Source: Edaphobacter acidisoli (lineage in GTDB: Bacteria > Acidobacteriota > Terriglobia > Terriglobales > Acidobacteriaceae). Taken from it: 64,000 nt of DNA. Both the position numbers and the translations under genes were made by a program. The stretch lies in the NCBI RefSeq assembly GCF_014642855.1, contig NZ_BMJB01000001.1:496001-560000 (forward strand). Reading direction: 5' to 3'. This document shows positions 37,347-63,452 of the stretch, in pieces (positions within the stretch are counted from its first letter, which is position 1; the number at the start of each line of letters is the position of its first letter). A model generated the notes under the pieces. It ran no database searches and was not told the origin of the DNA. It saw only the letters and a program-made list of their open reading frames with translations.

Positions 37347-37363
37347 GTTATTTCCTCAAAACA

Positions 37364-37452
37364 GGGCCAAAGGCCCGTCTCATACCAGCCTGGGGCAAAG
37401 CCCCAGGTTCGAGACACCCGAAGAATCAGAGGGCTGAAGGCCCGACTTATAG
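37364..37452 (+). repeat. R4 three-hairpin intergenic repeat, copy 1
   Basis: Three short hairpins follow one another: GGGCC-AAA-GGCCC (37364-37376), CCTGGGGC-AAA-GCCCCAGG (37389-37407) and GGGC-TGAAG-GCCC (37431-37443). A second copy in reverse orientation lies at 61976-62064. The inter-hairpin words CATACCAG and AGG(T/A)(T/A)CGA are shared. Confidence 0.85.
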
Positions 37453-38834: not shown

Positions 38835-40185
38835 AGACGGCAGCCTCTTCGACGACCCCACGCTGGTCCGCGCTTACGAGCTAGCCGCGCACGAAGGCCG
38901 CGCCCTGCACCTCATCGGCCTCGTCTCCGACGGCGGAGTCCACTCGCACCAGCGCCATCTCTACGCGCTGCTGCGCATGGCCGCCCAGCGCAAGCTCACC
39001 CACGTCTACGTCCACGCCTTCATGGACGGACGCGACACCATGCCCACTAGCGGCGTCGGCTACCTCCAGGAGCTGCACCGCAAGTTCCACGAGTACGGCG
39101 TCGGCGTCATCGCCAGCGTCAGCGGCCGCTACTACGCCATGGACCGCGACCTGCGCTGGGAAAAAGAGCGTCAGGCATTTGACGCCATGGTCACAGGCCA
39201 TCCCGAAGGCGGACTCTACGGCAGCCCCGTCGAGCGTCTCCGCGAGCTCTACAACAACGGCATCACCGACGAGTTCGTCCCGCCCTTCACCTGCATCAAC
39301 CCAACCGATGGCAAACCAGTCGGCCTCATCCGCGACCGCGACGTCGTGATTAATTTCAACTATCGCGCCGACCGAGCCCGCCAGATCACCCGCGTCCTCG
39401 GACGCAACTCCGGCTTCGCGCCCGACGCAGGACAGCATCTGCCCAAAGCCGCTGAGCTGGACGAAATGATCCCGCGCAATCTCGTCCCGCGCGACCTGCA
39501 CTACGTAGCGATGACGCAGTACGACAAGACATTCACTGTCCCGGTCGTCATCCCACCCGAGAGCATGGACAACCTGCTCGCCAACCTCATGGCGCAGGCC
39601 AACCTCCGCAACCTCCGCGTAGCCGAGACGGAAAAGTACGCGCACGTCACCTACTTCTTCAACGGCGGAATCGAAAAACCCTTCGCCGGCGAAGACCGCG
39701 TCCTCGTCCCCTCGCAGAAGGTCGCAACCTACGACCTCGCGCCGGAGATGTCCGCCGCAGGCATCGGCGACGCAGTCGTCAAGGCCATTGGAGACACGGC
39801 GTTCGACGTGATCATCGTCAACTTCGCCAACGCCGACATGGTCGGCCACTCCGGCAAACTGGAGCCAACGATCAAGGGAGTCGAAACCATCGACACGCAG
39901 CTCGCGCGCATCTACCAGGCGATCAAGCAGCGCGGAGGCTCACTACTCGTCACCGCCGACCACGGCAACGCCGAGATGCTCATCGATCCGGCAACCGGCG
40001 GCCCGCACACCGCGCACACGACAAACCCGGTCCCGTTCATCCTGATCACCGAAGACGGCAAAAAAGTAAGCCTGCGCGAAGGCGGAAGCCTGCGCGACAT
40101 TTCGCCCACAGTCCTCGACCTGCTCAACCTCGGCCAACCGAAGGACATGACCGGAGGCAACCTCCGCATCGAGCAGACCCGCTAA
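38575..40185 (+). CDS. gpmI: 2,3-bisphosphoglycerate-independent phosphoglycerate mutase
   Basis: The product has 536 residues, normal for the two-domain iPGM. It interconverts 3- and 2-phosphoglycerate and so feeds enolase, which is encoded 3 kb upstream. Alkaline-phosphatase-superfamily metal sites are visible: ILDGWGYR at the start, the phosphoserine-forming Ser in [46 protein letters not shown] and VTADHGNAE. The ATG lies in CATAATCATG with little Shine-Dalgarno signal. The frame of the upstream zinc-motif gene overlaps its first 260 bp. It is convergent with recR. Confidence 0.97.
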
Positions 40186-40199
40186 GGGTTTGCTCGATG

Positions 40200-40802
40200 C
40201 TAAAACTCGCGACGCCCTTCCATCGCCCGCGTCATCGTCACCTCATCGGCATACTCTATGTCGCTGCCGGCGGGAACACCAGTCGCAATGCGCGTGACCT
40301 TCAGCGCAGGCTTTGTCTTACGCAGTTCAAGAGCAAGATAGCCCGCAGTAGCTTCGCCCTCAGTCGTCGGCGAAGTCGCCAGAATCACCTCATCGACCGC
40401 AGCCAGCCGCGTGAACAGATTGGCCATCCGCAACTGCTCCGGCCCAACTCCGCCGATAGGCGAGAGCGTTCCGTGCAGCACATGGTAGACGCCGTTGTAG
40501 CCGCGCGTCTTTTCGATGGTAGCGATGTTCGTCGGTTCCTCGACCACGCAAACTACGCGCTGATCGCGCACCGCGCTGGTGCAGAACGTGCATGGATCAA
40601 CATCGGTGATGTTGTTGCAGACCGAGCAAAGCCGCAGATGCAGCTTCAGCTCACGGATCGCTGTAGCAAGAGCCTCGGCGTCTTCCGCAGGTGAGCGCAG
40701 GATGTGAAACGCCAGCCGCTGCGCGCTCCTGGTGCCTACACCAGGCAGCTTGCGCAGCTCGTCGATCAGCCGCGTCATCGGTCCCGCAAAACGGTCCGCC
40801 AC
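40200..40802 (-). CDS. recR: Recombination protein RecR
   Basis: The product has 200 residues. RecR works with RecF and RecO to load RecA at single-strand gaps. The N-terminal helix-hairpin-helix (LIDELRKLPGVGTRSAQRLA), the zinc finger with four Cys (CSVCNNITDVDPCTFC), and the Toprim motif (VCVVEEPTNIATIEKT with later ATSPTTEGEATA) are all present. It starts one base after the ybaB stop and is the last gene of the dnaX-ybaB-recR operon on the minus strand, the same order as in E. coli. Confidence 0.97.
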   Translation of the reverse strand: MADRFAGPMTRLIDELRKLPGVGTRSAQRLAFHILRSPAEDAEALATAIRELKLHLRLCSVCNNITDVDPCTFCTSAVRDQRVVCVVEEPTNIATIEKTRGYNGVYHVLHGTLSPIGGVGPEQLRMANLFTRLAAVDEVILATSPTTEGEATAGYLALELRKTKPALKVTRIATGVPAGSDIEYADEVTMTRAMEGRREF

Positions 40803-40803
40803 G

Positions 40804-41136
40804 TTAGGTCAACCCCGGCAGGTCCGGCAATCCGAGTCCGCCCATCATCCCGGACAAGCTGGACTTAACCGTCTCATCGACACGCCGCCCGGCCTCATTC
40901 ACTGCGGCTGCAATTAAATCCTCGAGCAGTTCAAGGTCGCTGCCCGCGCTGCCAATCGCACTCGGCTCGATGCGCAGACGCAGCACCTCTTTTTTACCGT
41001 TCATCCGCACGGTCACAACGCCTCCGCCAGTCGAAGCCTCGACGACCGTCTCGGCAAGCTTGCGCTCCATCTGCTCCTGCATCTGCTTTGCCTGCCCGAG
41101 CACATCTTTCATCTTTGCAAGATCGGAAAAATTCAT
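40804..41136 (-). CDS. ybaB: YbaB/EbfC nucleoid-associated protein
   Basis: The product has 110 residues. YbaB family proteins form dimers that bind DNA and may shape the nucleoid. The sequence shows the N-terminal helix rich in Met and Gln (AKQMQEQMERKLAETVVEAS), the conserved GGGVVTVRMNGKKEVLRLRIEP block, and a C-terminal helix with a Gly/Leu-rich tail (MMGGLGLPDLPGL). It sits 20 bp after dnaX and directly before recR. Confidence 0.95.
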   Translation of the reverse strand: MNFSDLAKMKDVLGQAKQMQEQMERKLAETVVEASTGGGVVTVRMNGKKEVLRLRIEPSAIGSAGSDLELLEDLIAAAVNEAGRRVDETVKSSLSGMMGGLGLPDLPGLT

Positions 41137-41156
41137 TCGTCCCTCACGCTAAAAAA

Positions 41157-43061
41157 TTAATCATCATCGCGCAGATCGATCACGGTACGAATCTCAGCCT
41201 GAAACAACGATTGCGCCTGCTGCACCACCGGATGTTCGAGCGCCTTCGCCTGAACGCTTCCCGTCTTCGCTGCACGCTGCTTCTTCGGAGCCGAAGCGCT
41301 CGCCGTTCCCGGAAGCAGAACCAGCTTCAACGCGCCAGCTCCAGCATCGCGCAGCGCTGCACGCACAATCTTCTCCGCCTCCGCATTGACGACCATCGAG
41401 AGCATCGCCTTCGAGACCTCAGTCTGCACGCGGATCTCGCCGTTCTCAACGGCCCACTCCGCATCGTTGAGCGCATCAGCCGCAGTGTCCTGACTCTTCG
41501 CCTTCGAGAGTGCCTCAACCGCAGCCTTCTGCAAAGCATCAGCCGAAGCCGCTTCGGAAGCGGATGTCGCAGGAGCCGAAGATGCGCTCTCGCTTGCAGC
41601 CACAACAGGTTCAGTAACAGCAGAAGCAGAAATCGCAGGTGCTGCGACAGAAGCAGAAGCAGGAACCTCAACAGGCTTCGGAACCTGAGGAACAGAAGCC
41701 GCAATCGGCGCAGGAGCAGCTGCAGCAGGAGTTTCGTCGAACCGCTTCCTGCTCTGCTCGAACGGCGAGAACGCAGGCTTCGCCGAAACTACAGGAGCAG
41801 TAGCAACGCTCGCTTCCACCGCGCGAGTCGTAGTCACACTCTTCGCAGGAGCAGCCTGCGAAACTGAACTCGGTCGAGCCGCAGGACTTCCGCCAACAGG
41901 GAACTGACTCAGTATTTCCTCGACTGGAAGCAGACGACGCAAATGCACGAGCTTGAGCAGTCCAAGCTCGAAGTGGAATCGCTGCTCCTGTCTGTAACCA
42001 AGTTCGTCGAACGTCCTAAGCATCACCTGGAGAAAGCGCGTCAGCTCTTCCTCGGTGAACAGCGCAGCCGAACGCAACGCACGCCGCTGCTCGTCCGCCG
42101 ATATCTGAAGCAGCTCAGCCGCCGCACCATCACCAGCGATCTTAGCGATGAGGCAGTTGCGCAGATAGCGCACGCACTGGCGAGCCAGTTGTGCTGGCGA
42201 GTTTCCAGCATCGAGCAGTCCGTTCGCCACGGTAATGACTTCAGCGCTGCGGTTGCCATCAACAGCTTCGAGGATTCGCTCGAAGACAGCATTCGGCACC
42301 GTTCCCATCAGCTCGCGTATCTGCGAAGCATCGAGCCGCGGTTTGCCGTCCTCCAGCGGTGCGCTCGCAATCGCCTGGTCCATGATGGACAGCGCATCGC
42401 GCATCGAGCCATCGCCCGCTTCGGCGAGCAGGCTCAGCGCCGCATCATCGGCGATCACGCCTTCCTTCTCGGCGATGCCGCGCAGCTCGCTCAGAATGTC
42501 GGCGAGTTTGACGGCATGAAAGCTGAAGTGCTGGCAGCGCGAGCGCACCGTCTGCGGAATGTCTTCCGGCTGCGTCGTCGCCATCATAAAGACGATGTGC
42601 TCGGGCGGTTCTTCGAGCGTCTTGAGCAGCGCATTGAAGGCCGCATCGGTGATCTGGTGCGCCTCGTCGAGGATATAGATCTTGTACTTATCGCGAGCTG
42701 GTCTGTAACGAGCCGCATCACGCAGTTCGCGTATCTCGTCGATGCCGCGATTGGTCGCCGCGTCGATCTCAATGACGTCGACTGCGTTACCAGCACGAAT
42801 CTCGGTGCAGCTCTCGCAGACCTCGCACGGCTCAGGCGTTGGTCGCAGCTCAGAGCCGATGGCGTTGCGGCAGTTGAGAGCCATCGCGAGGATGCGCGCG
42901 ATGGTCGTCTTGCCGATACCACGATGGCCGCTGAAGATGTATCCGTGCGCGATCCTGTTCTGGCGCAGGGCATTCATCAACGTGACCGTGACGTGGTCCT
43001 GCCCCGCAACGTCCGCGAAGCGTTGAGGCCGGTATTTACGTGCGAGAACCTGATATGCCAT
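41157..43061 (-). CDS. dnaX: DNA polymerase III subunit gamma/tau
   Basis: The product has 634 residues from the ATG at 43061 (MAYQVLARKYRPQRF); a TTG 18 bases upstream is not preferred. It is the clamp-loader ATPase. Walker A is SGHRGIGKTTIAR, four zinc-binding Cys lie in the C-rich loop about residues 60-80 (EPCEVCESC), Walker B is YILDEAHQ, and sensor 1 plus the SRC motif follow (MATTQPEDIPQTVRSRCQHF). After about residue 370 the chain becomes a long Ala/Pro/Ser/Val-rich linker and ends in a short tau-like domain. No run of A residues suited to programmed frameshifting is seen. Confidence 0.97.
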   Translation of the reverse strand: MAYQVLARKYRPQRFADVAGQDHVTVTLMNALRQNRIAHGYIFSGHRGIGKTTIARILAMALNCRNAIGSELRPTPEPCEVCESCTEIRAGNAVDVIEIDAATNRGIDEIRELRDAARYRPARDKYKIYILDEAHQITDAAFNALLKTLEEPPEHIVFMMATTQPEDIPQTVRSRCQHFSFHAVKLADILSELRGIAEKEGVIADDAALSLLAEAGDGSMRDALSIMDQAIASAPLEDGKPRLDASQIRELMGTVPNAVFERILEAVDGNRSAEVITVANGLLDAGNSPAQLARQCVRYLRNCLIAKIAGDGAAAELLQISADEQRRALRSAALFTEEELTRFLQVMLRTFDELGYRQEQRFHFELGLLKLVHLRRLLPVEEILSQFPVGGSPAARPSSVSQAAPAKSVTTTRAVEASVATAPVVSAKPAFSPFEQSRKRFDETPAAAAPAPIAASVPQVPKPVEVPASASVAAPAISASAVTEPVVAASESASSAPATSASEAASADALQKAAVEALSKAKSQDTAADALNDAEWAVENGEIRVQTEVSKAMLSMVVNAEAEKIVRAALRDAGAGALKLVLLPGTASASAPKKQRAAKTGSVQAKALEHPVVQQAQSLFQAEIRTVIDLRDDD

Positions 43062-43130
43062 AAAAAAGAAGTCGACCAAGACACTACGAAGAATATCGAC
43101 CGAGACTCTATTGTATCGTTCGCGCGAGGG

Positions 43131-43595
43131 TCAGTTTTTCCCTACCGCGCGGGCGCGCCGTGTCTCACGGCGCCTGCGCCGCACGACCTCTTCTTCGCTG
43201 AACATGGTGCCCCGGCAGGCGAAAGCGCCGCAGTAGCAATCGGCGTCGGAGTCGTCGCTGTCGTGCAGGTTGTACTCGTAGGTCAGCTCTTCTCCGGCGG
43301 CGATGTCGCGCAGGGCCACGATGTAGATATGACCGCGAATGTCAGTGGTTTCGCAGTTCGGATCACAGGAGTGGTTGATGAACATCGCTGTGCCGAAGCC
43401 GTCGATGATGATGCCATCATCTCCGCAACTGAACAGGTAGGTGATGTCGCGGTCTTTATAGCGAGCATCGGCCTCGGCCTTGGTGAAGCGCGGGCCACCG
43501 TACTCGATGACACGTTCTCCCTTTTTGAACGGGCGTGTGGTGTAGCAGCCGGCGGCATGGATCGAAGAGGAGCGAATAATGAGACCTTCGGGCAC
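43131..43595 (-). CDS. SET-domain protein with post-SET zinc motif
   Basis: The product has 154 residues from a GTG at 43595. The SET fold is complete: the N-terminal HAAGCYTTRPFKKGERVIEY, the knot motifs INHSCDPNCE (residues 73-82) and GEELTYEYN (101-109), and a post-SET cluster DCYCGAFACRG with three Cys (120, 122, 127). This is the layout of SAM-dependent lysine methyltransferases known from eukaryotes and from bacteria such as Chlamydia. The Arg/Lys-rich tail could bind nucleic acid. The substrate is unknown. It lies 69 bp upstream of dnaX on the same strand. Confidence 0.9.
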   Translation of the reverse strand: MPEGLIIRSSSIHAAGCYTTRPFKKGERVIEYGGPRFTKAEADARYKDRDITYLFSCGDDGIIIDGFGTAMFINHSCDPNCETTDIRGHIYIVALRDIAAGEELTYEYNLHDSDDSDADCYCGAFACRGTMFSEEEVVRRRRRETRRARAVGKN

Positions 43596-43721
43596 GGAAA
43601 CAGTCCATCCAGATGTGCGGAGTGAGTAAAGTAGCTTCGAGCGAGAAGCTCCCTCAACGACAATCTATAACAAAGTGAGGACTTCCGCCGTCCAACACCT
43701 CAGTTGGATAATAGAAAGACG

Positions 43722-44468
43722 ATGATGTGGCGAGGGACAACCCGTCTTCTGCTGGCTGTGGGGACGCTTTCGGCAGCGTGCTGGGCGCAGAGTGCTCCAG
43801 CGGCAAAGCCCTCGGACGCGCCTTGTTCCGCAACAAAGCCTGCATCTGGTCAGGACAGTAATCAAAGCAGCCAGGGCAATACCCAGACGAAGCCTTGCGG
43901 TGCATCAACCAGCACGGCGCCAAAGTCTGTTGCGGATCAGTTCCCGTTTCCCGGAGAAGACAGCCAGCCTAAGGCACCTGCTGCGAATGCTCCTGCGCCG
44001 AATGCCTCTCATCCTTCGGCTGCGTCGGAGCATCCGTTTCCTGGTGAACCTCCTGCAGCGGACTCGGGTTCGAGTAGTTCAATCCCAGACTCTGGTGGTT
44101 CGAGCAGTTCCAGCAGCGATGATGATAATTACGATCCCAGTGCTCCACTTCCCTCAACATTGAAGAAGCCGCAACCAGCTCCGAAAATGCAGACTCCGGA
44201 TCAACGTGTTGATGAAGATCTCCGGGTCTCGAAGTTCTACATGGACAATGACAATCTTGCGGGAGCGTATTTAAGGGCGAAGGATGCAGTGAAGACTGAG
44301 CCGGACTATTCGGAGACGCACTTTGTGCTTGCTCAGGTGCTCACGAAGATGAAGAAGAAGGATGAGGCTATCGCTGAGTACCAGGCATACCTCAAGATGG
44401 ACCCGAATGGGGATCGTGCGAAGATGGTGAAGACGGCGCTGGCCGATCTCGACCACAGTAAAAAATAG
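43722..44468 (+). CDS. Secreted TPR-like protein with low-complexity linker
   Basis: The product has 248 residues from the ATG at 43722 (43725 is possible). A signal peptide ends at CWAQ. Residues about 25-160 are a Pro/Ala/Ser/Asp-rich linker with a run of serines and two copies of the motif FPGE (QFPFPGED and HPFPGEPP). The last ~85 residues form two TPR-like helical hairpins (VSKFYMDNDNLAGAYLRAKDAV and THFVLAQVLTKMKKKDEAIA). It is probably periplasmic, perhaps a scaffold or a partner of an outer-membrane assembly factor. Its role is unknown. Confidence 0.75.
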   Translation: MMWRGTTRLLLAVGTLSAACWAQSAPAAKPSDAPCSATKPASGQDSNQSSQGNTQTKPCGASTSTAPKSVADQFPFPGEDSQPKAPAANAPAPNASHPSAASEHPFPGEPPAADSGSSSSIPDSGGSSSSSSDDDNYDPSAPLPSTLKKPQPAPKMQTPDQRVDEDLRVSKFYMDNDNLAGAYLRAKDAVKTEPDYSETHFVLAQVLTKMKKKDEAIAEYQAYLKMDPNGDRAKMVKTALADLDHSKK

Positions 44469-44519
44469 GCAAAATTTGTTTAGGTCAGTGCGCAGGCAGT
44501 GTAACGTTGTCATGTTGCT

Positions 44520-45047
44520 ATGAACGAGCTTGGAGAACTGAACCACGCGATTGCCTTTTCGCTGCGCGGACTCGATGCGGCGCAGACCCAGTTTCGTCCC
44601 TTGAAGCGTAAGAATCGCTGGAGCATTCAGCAGATTGTAGAGCACCTGCTGCTGACCTACTCGTCTACGGAGGAGATGATTGCAACACGGTTAGCGAAGG
44701 GACGACCGACCCGGAAGAAGCCTGGTCTGATGCAACACATCAGCCAGTACACTGTGATTCGATTGGGATATTTCCCTCGCGGACGCAAAGCCCCAACGCT
44801 GGTTATGCCTCCAGCAGAGGTTGCTGCGCCGCTTTCAGGCGAAGAACTATCACACCGTGTTCGGGAGCAACTATTGCATCTGCATGAGCTCTGCAACGAC
44901 GCGGAAAAAGCCTTTGGCGAGAAGCAATGTGCAAGCCATCATGTGCTTGGTCCTCTGAGTGCTGCTCAGTGGCGGCGCTTCCATCTGATTCATGGTGAAC
45001 ACCATGCACGTCAGATACTTGCCATTCGTAAAGAGCATGGAATGTAG
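44520..45047 (+). CDS. DinB-superfamily protein
   Basis: The product has 175 residues and fits the four-helix DinB/YfiT-like fold. Metal-site histidines are visible in RWSIQQIVEHLLLTY near the N-terminus and in HLIHGEHHARQI near the C-terminus. These proteins often act as thiol-dependent transferases or have unknown roles. The gene is 50 bp after the TPR-like gene and convergent with the next gene. No substrate can be inferred. Confidence 0.8.
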   Translation: MNELGELNHAIAFSLRGLDAAQTQFRPLKRKNRWSIQQIVEHLLLTYSSTEEMIATRLAKGRPTRKKPGLMQHISQYTVIRLGYFPRGRKAPTLVMPPAEVAAPLSGEELSHRVREQLLHLHELCNDAEKAFGEKQCASHHVLGPLSAAQWRRFHLIHGEHHARQILAIRKEHGM

Positions 45048-61348: not shown

Positions 61349-61657
61349 TTAAATGTGTTCAGGGCCGAAGAGGGCTTCGAGGTCGCGCCGTCCATGAACG
61401 ACACGAAGAATCAGGACATCCTGTTCTTCGACGGCGTAGATGATGACGTACTCTCCGACCGGGAAACTGCGCGTGCCTGTTCCGAATTCATGGTCGCGGC
61501 TGCGGCCCAGGTAGGGATGCTGGGCCAGCAGGATAAATCTGCTGGTGAGGGAGTCTACAAGGTGGTCGGCGATCTCGATGCTGGAGCTTTCTTTGGCGAT
61601 GAAATACCAAATGTCGTCGAGGTCGATTTCGGCGCGGACGGAGACACGATGGGCCAT
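61349..61657 (-). CDS. ParE/RelE-family toxin
   Basis: The product has 102 residues with the ParE-type fold: an N-terminal helix pair (VRAEIDLDDIWYFIAKES), then LAQHPYLGRSRDHEFG and the C-terminal strands RSFPVGEYVIIYAVEEQDVLILRVVHGRRD. ParE toxins poison DNA gyrase and RelE toxins cut mRNA; the sequence cannot tell which. It is the second gene of a two-gene cassette and its start codon shares one base with the stop codon of the antitoxin. Confidence 0.9.
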   Translation of the reverse strand: MAHRVSVRAEIDLDDIWYFIAKESSSIEIADHLVDSLTSRFILLAQHPYLGRSRDHEFGTGTRSFPVGEYVIIYAVEEQDVLILRVVHGRRDLEALFGPEHI

Positions 61658-61938
61658 CAGCGGGAGGTGCCCAGTTCAGCGGCGAGGCGGGCGCGCCCGC
61701 GCTCTTTTACTGCATCTGCGAGTTCCTGCATGGATTCCTGAGTGATGGGGCGACCTTTGCCCTGGGCGAGGGAAGAGCGAGCTTCGTCGATGGTTGCCAG
61801 GAACGCGATGCGCTCACGCTCGCGAGTCTCCCAAAGGCTTAGTGCTTCCTCGATTGCATCTTCCTCGCGGTGCAGGCGTCCGCTTTCGACGGCTCGGCGG
61901 GCGAGGGCTTGCTGGTCGGAGGTGAGGTGGACTTCCAT
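61657..61938 (-). CDS. ParD-like antitoxin
   Basis: The product has 93 residues from the ATG at 61938 (MEVHLTSDQQALARRAVESG); the frame stays open upstream through a repeat, but that part is not protein-like. The N-terminal beta-strand and helices (EEDAIEEALSLWETRER) form a ribbon-helix-helix-like DNA-binding part, and the C-terminal helix (SMQELADAVKERGRARLAAE) would cover the toxin. No Shine-Dalgarno sequence is visible. It probably represses its own cassette. Confidence 0.85.
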   Translation of the reverse strand: MEVHLTSDQQALARRAVESGRLHREEDAIEEALSLWETRERERIAFLATIDEARSSLAQGKGRPITQESMQELADAVKERGRARLAAELGTSR

Positions 61939-61975
61939 GGGTTTAGGGTACGGAAAAGCGGGTGGCGAGGCAATA

Positions 61976-62064
61976 GTTATGAGTCGCGCCTTCAGCGCTC
62001 TGGGGTTTGTTGGGTTCGTACCTGGGGCTTCGCCCCAGGCTGGTATGAATCGGGCCTTTGGCCC
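61976..62064 (-). repeat. R4 three-hairpin intergenic repeat, copy 2 (reverse orientation)
   Basis: Reverse orientation relative to 37364-37452. The hairpins, read on the plus strand, are GCGC-CTTCA-GCGC (61986-61998), CCTGGGGC-TTC-GCCCCAGG and GGGCC-TTT-GGCCC (62052-62064). The outer hairpin differs from copy 1 by a compensatory pair change. It lies between the antitoxin start and the FRG-SET gene. Confidence 0.85.
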
Positions 62065-62216
62065 TCGCGCTTCGCGATCCGGGGGCAATGTATTGTGTTT
62101 CAGGTTGGTGGGCACGATTGGTTCAGGGGGCCTGAATGCAGATTTTTTGGTTCGTGGCGGGGTCGAGATTTTACTTCCCCACCCGTCGGCAAAGTGCACA
62201 AGCGCCACCGCAGACT

Positions 62217-63452
62217 TTACTTCGTCTTCTTCGCTCGCCTTCGATTGCGCTTCTCTGAAGGTTCTGGTTCGTCGCTAAAACTGCTGTAATCGATCGTTAG
62301 TTCTTGTCCTGCTGGGATCCGGCGTTCTGCATAGAAGTCATAGCTCTCGTCACATCTGGTATTTGGTTTCTTGGAGTCATTCATGAACCATGCTGGTGTA
62401 AGCCGATTAAAGGATGTCGGGCACCCATAGCGATCTCCCTTGATGATGGCGAAATCGTCGTAGAGTCGCCGCAACTCCGGGTTTTTAGGGAGAAGTTCCT
62501 TGCTTAGCCAGAAGACCTCTTCATTCTCCTCAGCGAATATGCGAGTGCCTTTAGGGATATCTCTAATTGCGAATACACCCACACCTTCCTTGTGGAGGCT
62601 CGAAGGCTTGATGCGAACATAAACCCCACGATGCGGTGAATCCGTTTTTGCATCTTTGTAGGCAGTTGCTAATGCACGTCCAAGACCCTCGAGATCGGGA
62701 AATATAGTCGTGTCATCGATTCCGTAATCTTTTAGATTTAGCCGAATCCCCTTCACGGCATGGCCCGGTATGATGATCTTCTTTAAGCAGGGCCTCGCGC
62801 CCTTCATGAAACGATCAAACCCATCTGCTTCACGACCATGAACAGTGAAGCACGATTTTTGACTACTGATTCGTCGCGCAATATGAGTGGGAAAGATTGC
62901 GACCGGGGATTGTGGGATCATCCTTCCTGCCCAACGGGGTGGTAGCCAACGGGCGACCGGTTTGCAGTCCTTCGGGTTTGCCCCGACGGCACTCGGTGAA
63001 ATGACCTCTCCTCTCTTGATAACGCGCCTGTTCAATTCATACGGATTGAGTACCCATACAGAGGAGTCGTAATAACCCGGATTATCACGAACCGCGAAGT
63101 ATAGGGCGATGACAGGGCTTTCTGTCCAATCTAACAATCTTGTTGGGGCGCCGTAATGTTGCATCAGAAAGTAGAGATCCCAATCTACAGTAGGCATTGA
63201 TTCAAAACGACTCAATGCTGGCGCTCGGATGGCAAACTCTTCTCTGATTTCATCCTCAGTATCGGCATCACAGCATCCGATCCTCAAAATGTTTGGCCAG
63301 AGTTTCCACTGTTTTCTTTGTTGTCCGCGATACCATGGCCCACTGACATCTTCACTGTCGAACCGCCATTCAGCGCGAATTTCAGAGGTTACAGACAGGA
63401 ATTCTTCAAGATTTTCTGCGACCCAATTAAGGTGGTCCTTTTTTGTGCTCAC
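62217..63452 (-). CDS. FRG-SET fusion protein
   Basis: The product has 411 residues. Residues about 17-265 form an FRG domain: PWYRGQ (39-44), then the block MQHYGAPTRLLDWTESPVIA (97-116). FRG domains are often seen in defence or toxin-like genes. Residues 278-390 form a SET methyltransferase domain: KEGVGVFAIRDIPKGTRIF, then WFMNDSKKPNTRC in place of the usual NHSCxPN motif, and AGQELTIDYSSFSD. There is no post-SET Cys cluster, and the C-terminus is strongly basic. I know of no characterised protein with this order of domains. The neighbours are the ParDE cassette and uvrB. Confidence 0.85.
   Translation of the reverse strand: MSTKKDHLNWVAENLEEFLSVTSEIRAEWRFDSEDVSGPWYRGQQRKQWKLWPNILRIGCCDADTEDEIREEFAIRAPALSRFESMPTVDWDLYFLMQHYGAPTRLLDWTESPVIALYFAVRDNPGYYDSSVWVLNPYELNRRVIKRGEVISPSAVGANPKDCKPVARWLPPRWAGRMIPQSPVAIFPTHIARRISSQKSCFTVHGREADGFDRFMKGARPCLKKIIIPGHAVKGIRLNLKDYGIDDTTIFPDLEGLGRALATAYKDAKTDSPHRGVYVRIKPSSLHKEGVGVFAIRDIPKGTRIFAEENEEVFWLSKELLPKNPELRRLYDDFAIIKGDRYGCPTSFNRLTPAWFMNDSKKPNTRCDESYDFYAERRIPAGQELTIDYSSFSDEPEPSEKRNRRRAKKTK

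Follow-up and report, generated by a model that had tools for sequence, protein, structure and literature searches.

A conserved stand-alone SET-domain protein of Edaphobacter acidisoli, very probably an active lysine methyltransferase, and its candidate substrates

Which of their own proteins bacteria methylate by means of SET enzymes becomes a directly testable question with a soil-bacterial SET gene that is kept through a genus whose genomes also encode a histone H1-like protein. This gene lies on the minus strand (43131..43595) of a 64,000-nucleotide stretch of Edaphobacter acidisoli DNA, referred to here as the window, and encodes a stand-alone SET and post-SET protein of 154 residues with a GTG start. 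By analogy with systems described elsewhere, a small enzyme of the histone-marking type might be at work in a soil bacterium whose own genome encodes a candidate H1-like bearer of the mark. Among the matches listed from the open-licence literature, none dealt with this gene or with the SET proteins of these bacteria, which is not proof that such papers do not exist.

Anatomy and predicted fold of the SET protein

The SET domain (Pfam PF00856) covers residues 16-109 (43269..43550, minus strand, as are all the following motifs) and scores above the curated cut-off of its family (E 5.8e-22, 78.6 bits, cut-off 22.4). In most homologues, an ATG is found at the position aligned with the GTG start of the window's reading frame, or no more than a few codons away. 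The initial annotation had described the SET motifs and the three-cysteine post-SET site as intact and followed by a basic tail, a description that is borne out on each point. Both NHSCDPNC, the cofactor/knot motif (residues 74-81, 43353..43376), and GEELTYEY (residues 101-108, 43272..43295), which carries the presumed catalytic Tyr108 and, at the Phe/Tyr switch, Tyr106, are present, and N74, H75, C77, N80, C81, E103 and Y108 are invariant in a 47-row alignment. The same holds for C120, C122 and C127 of the post-SET CxCx4C cluster, located within CYCGAFAC (residues 120-127, 43215..43238), while the NHSCDPNC motif presumably contributes the zinc site's fourth cysteine. At the level of the family clade, NHxCxxNC, CxCx4C and the catalytic tyrosine are kept in 153/153 rows, and the switch position is a tyrosine in 152 of them and a tryptophan in the other; these rows represent 126 distinct proteins, the two underlying collections sharing some genomes. 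The basic tail (residues 134-154, 43134..43196, predicted to be helical) is real as well, being net positive in 147 of 151 homologue tails of 5 residues or more, with a median charge of +6, a median length of 22 and 40% K/R. The protein comprises little beyond SET, post-SET and tail. In one relative (L044), the SET protein bears a long AKK-type tail that is H1-like in character.

An AlphaFold2 model computed from the 47-row alignment (mean pLDDT 91.1, C-terminal helix at 134-153) is predicted to adopt the SET fold, for which MLL1 comes out on top both with Foldseek (E 3.2e-12) and with VIA-align 2 (Z 17.4, rmsd 1.5, 129 aligned residues, 40% identity). MLL1 also ranks first when solved structures are searched by sequence (E 3.7e-19), and the best 60 of the 130 matches are all named histone-lysine or N-lysine methyltransferases. 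If positions are counted backwards from residue 3969, the last of the MLL1 chain, Tyr106 corresponds to MLL1 Tyr3942 and Tyr108 to Tyr3944, the former position being, as we take it, the Phe/Tyr switch that holds MLL1 to low methylation states. Judged from motifs, predicted fold and selection (see below), the SET protein is in all likelihood an active enzyme; that its role is endogenous, and not that of a secreted protein, appears very likely, and a specificity for mono- and dimethylation is somewhat favoured.

The window was also said to hold a second SET protein of a different type, and an FRG-SET protein is indeed encoded at 62217-63452 on the minus strand. The 4.2 Mb genome gives no SET match besides these two. 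By eye, the FRG-SET protein has NDS in place of NHS and lacks the post-SET cluster; its residues 12-267 match candidate defence models of PADLOC, PDC-S15 (best E 2.5e-49), and, its SET domain appearing degenerate, it is possibly a candidate anti-phage protein. The stand-alone SET protein finds no match at E 0.01 in PADLOC-DB 2023, which covers known and candidate anti-phage defence. Beside the FRG-SET gene lie two small minus-strand reading frames (61349-61657 and 61657-62208) that look toxin-antitoxin-like by eye, with a RelE/ParE-like product and a partner. Two Acido-Lenti-1 RNAs (RF01687) score above the gathering threshold in the window, at 37363-37407 (minus strand) and 62021-62065 (plus strand).

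Distribution, inheritance and neighbourhood of the SET gene

A strong SET match (E below 1e-40) is found in 60 of the 62 genomes of the genus, own genome included, the two genomes that lack it being 63% and 83% complete. At the same threshold, the gene is present in 38/57 genomes of other genera of the family, hence in 98/119 family genomes overall, and the looser threshold of E 0.001 raises matches in 129/199 genomes, more distant SET proteins included. When the phylum was sampled evenly, a strong match was obtained in 27 of 31 family members, and 90 of 297 genomes matched at all. In the named collection, the best 80 of 228 relatives were kept; these include Edaphobacter, Granulicella, Terriglobus, Acidobacterium, Acidipila, Bryocella and Silvibacterium, together with many Acidobacteria bins and one record titled Verrucomicrobia. 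Within the genus, the median pairwise dN/dS is about 0.11 (122 of 435 pairs with usable dS); for dnaX, the initial 230 codons give 0.035 (322 pairs). The SET value indicates that the gene is under purifying selection and, together with the motif conservation, excludes that the reading frame arose by chance. In addition, SET and dnaX similarities are moderately correlated over 96 loci (r 0.47; 0/500 permutations as high), which fits a mainly vertical inheritance. A search of phage records with the SET protein gave no match, and 47 plasmid records, mainly from Paraburkholderia and Caballeronia, contain relatives below 60% identity. In Terriglobus roseus DSM 18391 (NC_018014.1), the whole SET-dnaX-ybaB-recR locus occurs in two copies (L150 and L151), at about 2.50 and 2.96 Mb, that is about 460 kb apart, with near-identical gene spacing.

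On the minus strand of the window, the SET gene is followed by dnaX, coding for the DNA polymerase III gamma/tau subunit (41157..43061), by the gene of the nucleoid protein YbaB/EbfC (40804..41136), which thus sits two genes downstream, and by recR (40200..40802), which ends the dnaX-ybaB-recR cluster. A co-directional dnaX lies downstream of the SET gene in all 30 same-genus loci fetched, own locus included, with gaps of 47-208 bp and one of 677. In other genera, 15 of 35 loci have dnaX within 1.3 kb after the SET gene, and the remaining 20 do not. The genome collection, which overlaps with the collection behind these loci and consists of the closest 80 of 228 relatives, gives 58 of 72 loci with dnaX within 1.3 kb, when counting those with at least 1.8 kb of downstream sequence. 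The divergent neighbour upstream of the SET gene is also often kept, so that the region as a whole is stable.

Cross-locus comparison revealed a recurrent promoter-like element in front of each of the two genes. Upstream of the SET gene, the window displays an extended -10-like TGTTATA (43666..43672, minus strand), with TTGGACG 16 bases further upstream where the genus consensus reads TTtGACg; among 124 distinct 250-bp regions, 64 contain TGYTATA, where dinucleotide shuffles give 0.7. The genus form consists of TTGACg, 19 bases and TATAGT, the last lying within TGTTATAGTCAGC, and since the window's version combines TTGGACG with TGTTATAGATTG, its last -10 base is off the genus consensus. Another group of genera has TGCTATACT upstream of the SET gene. 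Between SET and dnaX, a second -10-like element, GATACAAT (43110..43117, minus strand), is probably dnaX's own promoter, the distinct regions upstream of dnaX containing the pattern GNTACAAT in 71 of 96 cases, where shuffles give 0.5. The regions preceding ybaB (0/65) and recR (0/68) have neither TGYTATA nor TACAAT. Within the 300 bases upstream of dnaX, family genomes devoid of the SET gene have G.TA.AAT in 4/14 and GNTACAAT in 1/14 cases, and SET-bearing genomes in the same comparison have them in 1/5 and 0/5; on this sequence comparison, the dnaX element is lineage-specific and not general outside close relatives. A standard sigma-70 scan of 40000-44600 returned 0 promoters with 0.8 expected, and Rfam at gathering threshold gave no RNA between SET and dnaX in 13 loci. 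In one relative, a tmRNA gene (L053:3336-3705, plus strand) lies about 1.4 kb upstream of the SET gene. The SET and dnaX elements, consensus-like sequences, resemble two distinct promoters, and this speaks against an obligate SET-dnaX operon.

The H1-like protein and other candidate substrates

The target of the SET protein had rightly been called not obvious in a bacterium; a candidate is now available outside the window, on a different contig of the own genome. There, a profile search identified a histone H1-like protein of 207 residues (G000:C2:49718-50341, minus strand, equivalent to L236:3719-4342), which is composed of an acidic N-terminus, an AKK-rich body and one non-repetitive island. 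Its gene adjoins an apparent peroxiredoxin gene (by eye), as it does in a relative (L203). The protein matches an independent three-sequence profile with E 3.6e-6 and a later profile, which contains its own sequence, with E 7.5e-34; it belongs to no Pfam or NCBIfam family at E 0.01. With either of the two profiles, an H1-like match is obtained in 60 of the 62 genomes of the genus, bearing in mind that the body is of low complexity and that weak matches may be other lysine-rich proteins. The H1-like proteins of relatives have about 200-350 residues, with the same acidic N-terminus and AKK-rich body and mostly one island, whose pattern, roughly SAAKK.SA.RGGK.APKKA.GNKST.SKK..KRG.TLATKKA, is present in 37 of 41 H1-like reading frames, some of them from the same genomes. 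A search with the chlamydial HC2 family gave matches in 48 of 120 relatives, of which 45 belong to the genus and 20 are over the cut-off, and none in the own genome.

Several further histone-related features were looked for. A resemblance of the island to the histone H3 tail was discarded, the score being not above shuffles (median z 0.7, 37 islands); the whole H1-like protein of the own genome does beat its shuffles against the H3 tail (0.2% as high), an excess that is read as uneven composition because the island itself is not above shuffles. Chlamydial Hc1 (PF07432) matches 0/199 genomes, own included, and is thereby rejected as the SET target. The own genome has no match to the archaeal-type histone fold PF00808, nor to the chromodomain reader PF00385, the latter giving no match in any control genome either, so that this second negative tells nothing.

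Across the whole family, the H1-like protein is found in 76 of 98 SET-bearing genomes versus 4 of 21 others (p 7e-7). The excess recurs in other genera (17/38 versus 3/19 without SET, p 0.04), in those of their genomes that are at least 90% complete (14/33 versus 1/13, p 0.035; 16/33 versus 1/13, p 0.016, with the first H1-like profile) and among the 31 family members in the even sample of the phylum (24/27 versus 0/4, p 0.001). Counting strong H1-like hits only, it is not significant (6/33 versus 1/13, p 0.65), and outside the family the association is weak (7/63 versus 9/203, p 0.07). The excess is moreover bound to relatedness: in other genera, an H1-like match accompanies 12 of the 15 SET proteins at least 59% identical to that of the window, whereas below 59% identity no difference from SET-less genomes is seen (5/23 versus 3/19, p 0.71), a matching of distances that is rough, as it was judged from dnaX for 12 of the 19 SET-less genomes and not at all for the others. 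SET-less genomes are far from the genus, and the H1-like profile rarely matches there, with or without SET. Co-occurrence was consequently abandoned as proof of a link, the excess being gone among roughly distance-matched genomes, and the association is treated as shared ancestry. An H1-like protein went undetected in 21 of the 38 other-genus genomes with SET.

In the model proposed here, the SET protein would be a small cytoplasmic lysine methyltransferase. Having bound S-adenosylmethionine, it would mono- or dimethylate a lysine in a protein of the same cell, and its basic tail would direct it to nucleic acid or to a protein bound there. Among named targets, the first choice would be the lysine-rich H1-like protein of the own genome, and methylation would tune its compaction of DNA. 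That the H1-like protein is the substrate, a choice guided by the chlamydial SET enzymes and Hc1/Hc2, can only be put forward tentatively, and the full chain from SET methyltransferase through H1-like methylation to tuned DNA compaction is likewise doubtful; the pairing is a reasoned lead and not a result.

It is quite conceivable that the SET protein is an active methyltransferase of a different housekeeping protein, such as a ribosomal protein, an elongation factor, RNA polymerase or HU, and that the H1-like protein is irrelevant. The retention of the SET gene in the 21 genomes just mentioned fits this proposal, as do three HU-family matches and a ribosomal-type protein with an AKK-rich extension in the own genome; yet no specific candidate emerged, and the HU proteins of the own genome are devoid of long lysine-rich tails. 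Another housekeeping protein is nevertheless at least as likely a target as the H1-like protein or YbaB. The ribosomal-protein-type gene, L22-like by eye, is located at L237:2655-3191 (minus strand), and its product, with the extension at the C-terminus, is another candidate substrate. The initial annotation had pointed to nucleoid proteins, with YbaB as the one named; nucleoid proteins are sensible candidates, but YbaB itself has little behind it. An action on YbaB, DnaX or RecR within a replication/repair operon would agree with the downstream position of dnaX in the genus and in most loci of the genome collection, and is nonetheless improbable in view of the two separate promoter-like elements, the adjacency in fewer than half of the other-genus loci, the stability of the region as a whole, its often kept divergent neighbour included, and a YbaB that here lacks a basic tail. 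The obligate operon that would make YbaB a natural target, weakened by these separate elements and by the 20 of 35 other-genus loci without adjacency, is weakly supported, and YbaB is a less likely substrate than the H1-like protein.

The two remaining explanations concern the nature of the protein itself. A secreted nucleomodulin that would methylate the histones of a eukaryote, for instance a soil protist or fungus, would suit the MLL-like SET domain and the presence of such effectors among the bacterial SET proteins described in PMC3980110, and the only NCBIfam match is a weak one, of 17.3 bits, to the Legionella effector AnkI/LegAS4. It is very improbable for a gene that is nearly universal in the genus, with a divergence that largely follows dnaX and a locus that is stable there, and whose 154-residue product has hardly any room besides SET, post-SET and tail. 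Still less probable is a non-catalytic SET-fold protein with a binding or structural role: catalytic activity is a prediction, but all 47 alignment rows keep the catalytic and zinc-site residues unchanged, and the motifs are found in 153/153 rows of the clade. The preferred reading is thus an active enzyme working on a protein of its own cell, with the H1-like protein as the leading named candidate. In its widest form, soil Acidobacteria would run their own chromatin-marking system, in which a near-universal MLL-like SET enzyme methylates lysines of an H1-like nucleoid protein, perhaps in the conserved non-repetitive island, and so controls nucleoid compaction or gene expression without a eukaryotic host; this we regard as unlikely.

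Comparison with known systems

Bacterial SET proteins are treated mainly as modifiers of host histones in the available text of PMC3980110. A works-like analogy is the C. pneumoniae enzyme cpnSET, which is reported to interact with both Hc1 and Hc2 and to methylate the former (PMC3980110; PMC10117894), whereas the related chlamydial SET protein NUE is there described as not methylating Hc1 (PMC3980110). The two cases have in common that a SET enzyme and a lysine-rich H1-like protein are encoded in one and the same cell. The differences are that Hc1 itself is not matched in the 199 genomes, that the H1-like protein has here an acidic N-terminus, and that methylation, reported for Chlamydia, is here putative. 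In the same line, Methanosarcina Go1-SET is reported to act on the endogenous DNA-associated protein MC1-alpha, this prokaryotic example being archaeal. With respect to the candidate substrate, Chlamydia Hc2 (PF07382) and the Burkholderia H1-like family (NF038053) share its Lys/Ala-rich repetitive body, and the H1-like proteins of relatives match either HC2 (the 48/120 genomes given above, 20 over the cut-off) or both HC2 and NF038053 below cut-off; the own protein departs from these two families by its acidic N-terminus and its RGGK...LATKKA island.

As for the enzyme, its score of 17.3 bits lies below the cut-off of 550 of the AnkI/LegAS4 effector family (NF043024). Short SET matches are provided by the bacterial "SET domain-containing protein-lysine N-methyltransferase" entries of Paraburkholderia, Caballeronia and Xanthomonas plasmids, the best among the matches listed reaching 42.5% identity over 86% of the query; unlike these, the window's gene is chromosomal, is kept across a genus, is preceded by a recurrent promoter-like element and encodes a basic tail. 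The best match in both sequence and fold among solved structures is to the SET domains of MLL1/KMT2A and SET1, the post-SET region included, and the tyrosine at the switch position is common to them and to the window's protein. The MLL/KMT2 family consists of large proteins with N-terminal domains, which the window's protein, with 154 residues in all, does not have. Going by these comparisons, it is MLL-like in its domain and not an MLL, and would be a well-conserved, previously undescribed member of the bacterial SET lysine methyltransferases that is very probably active.
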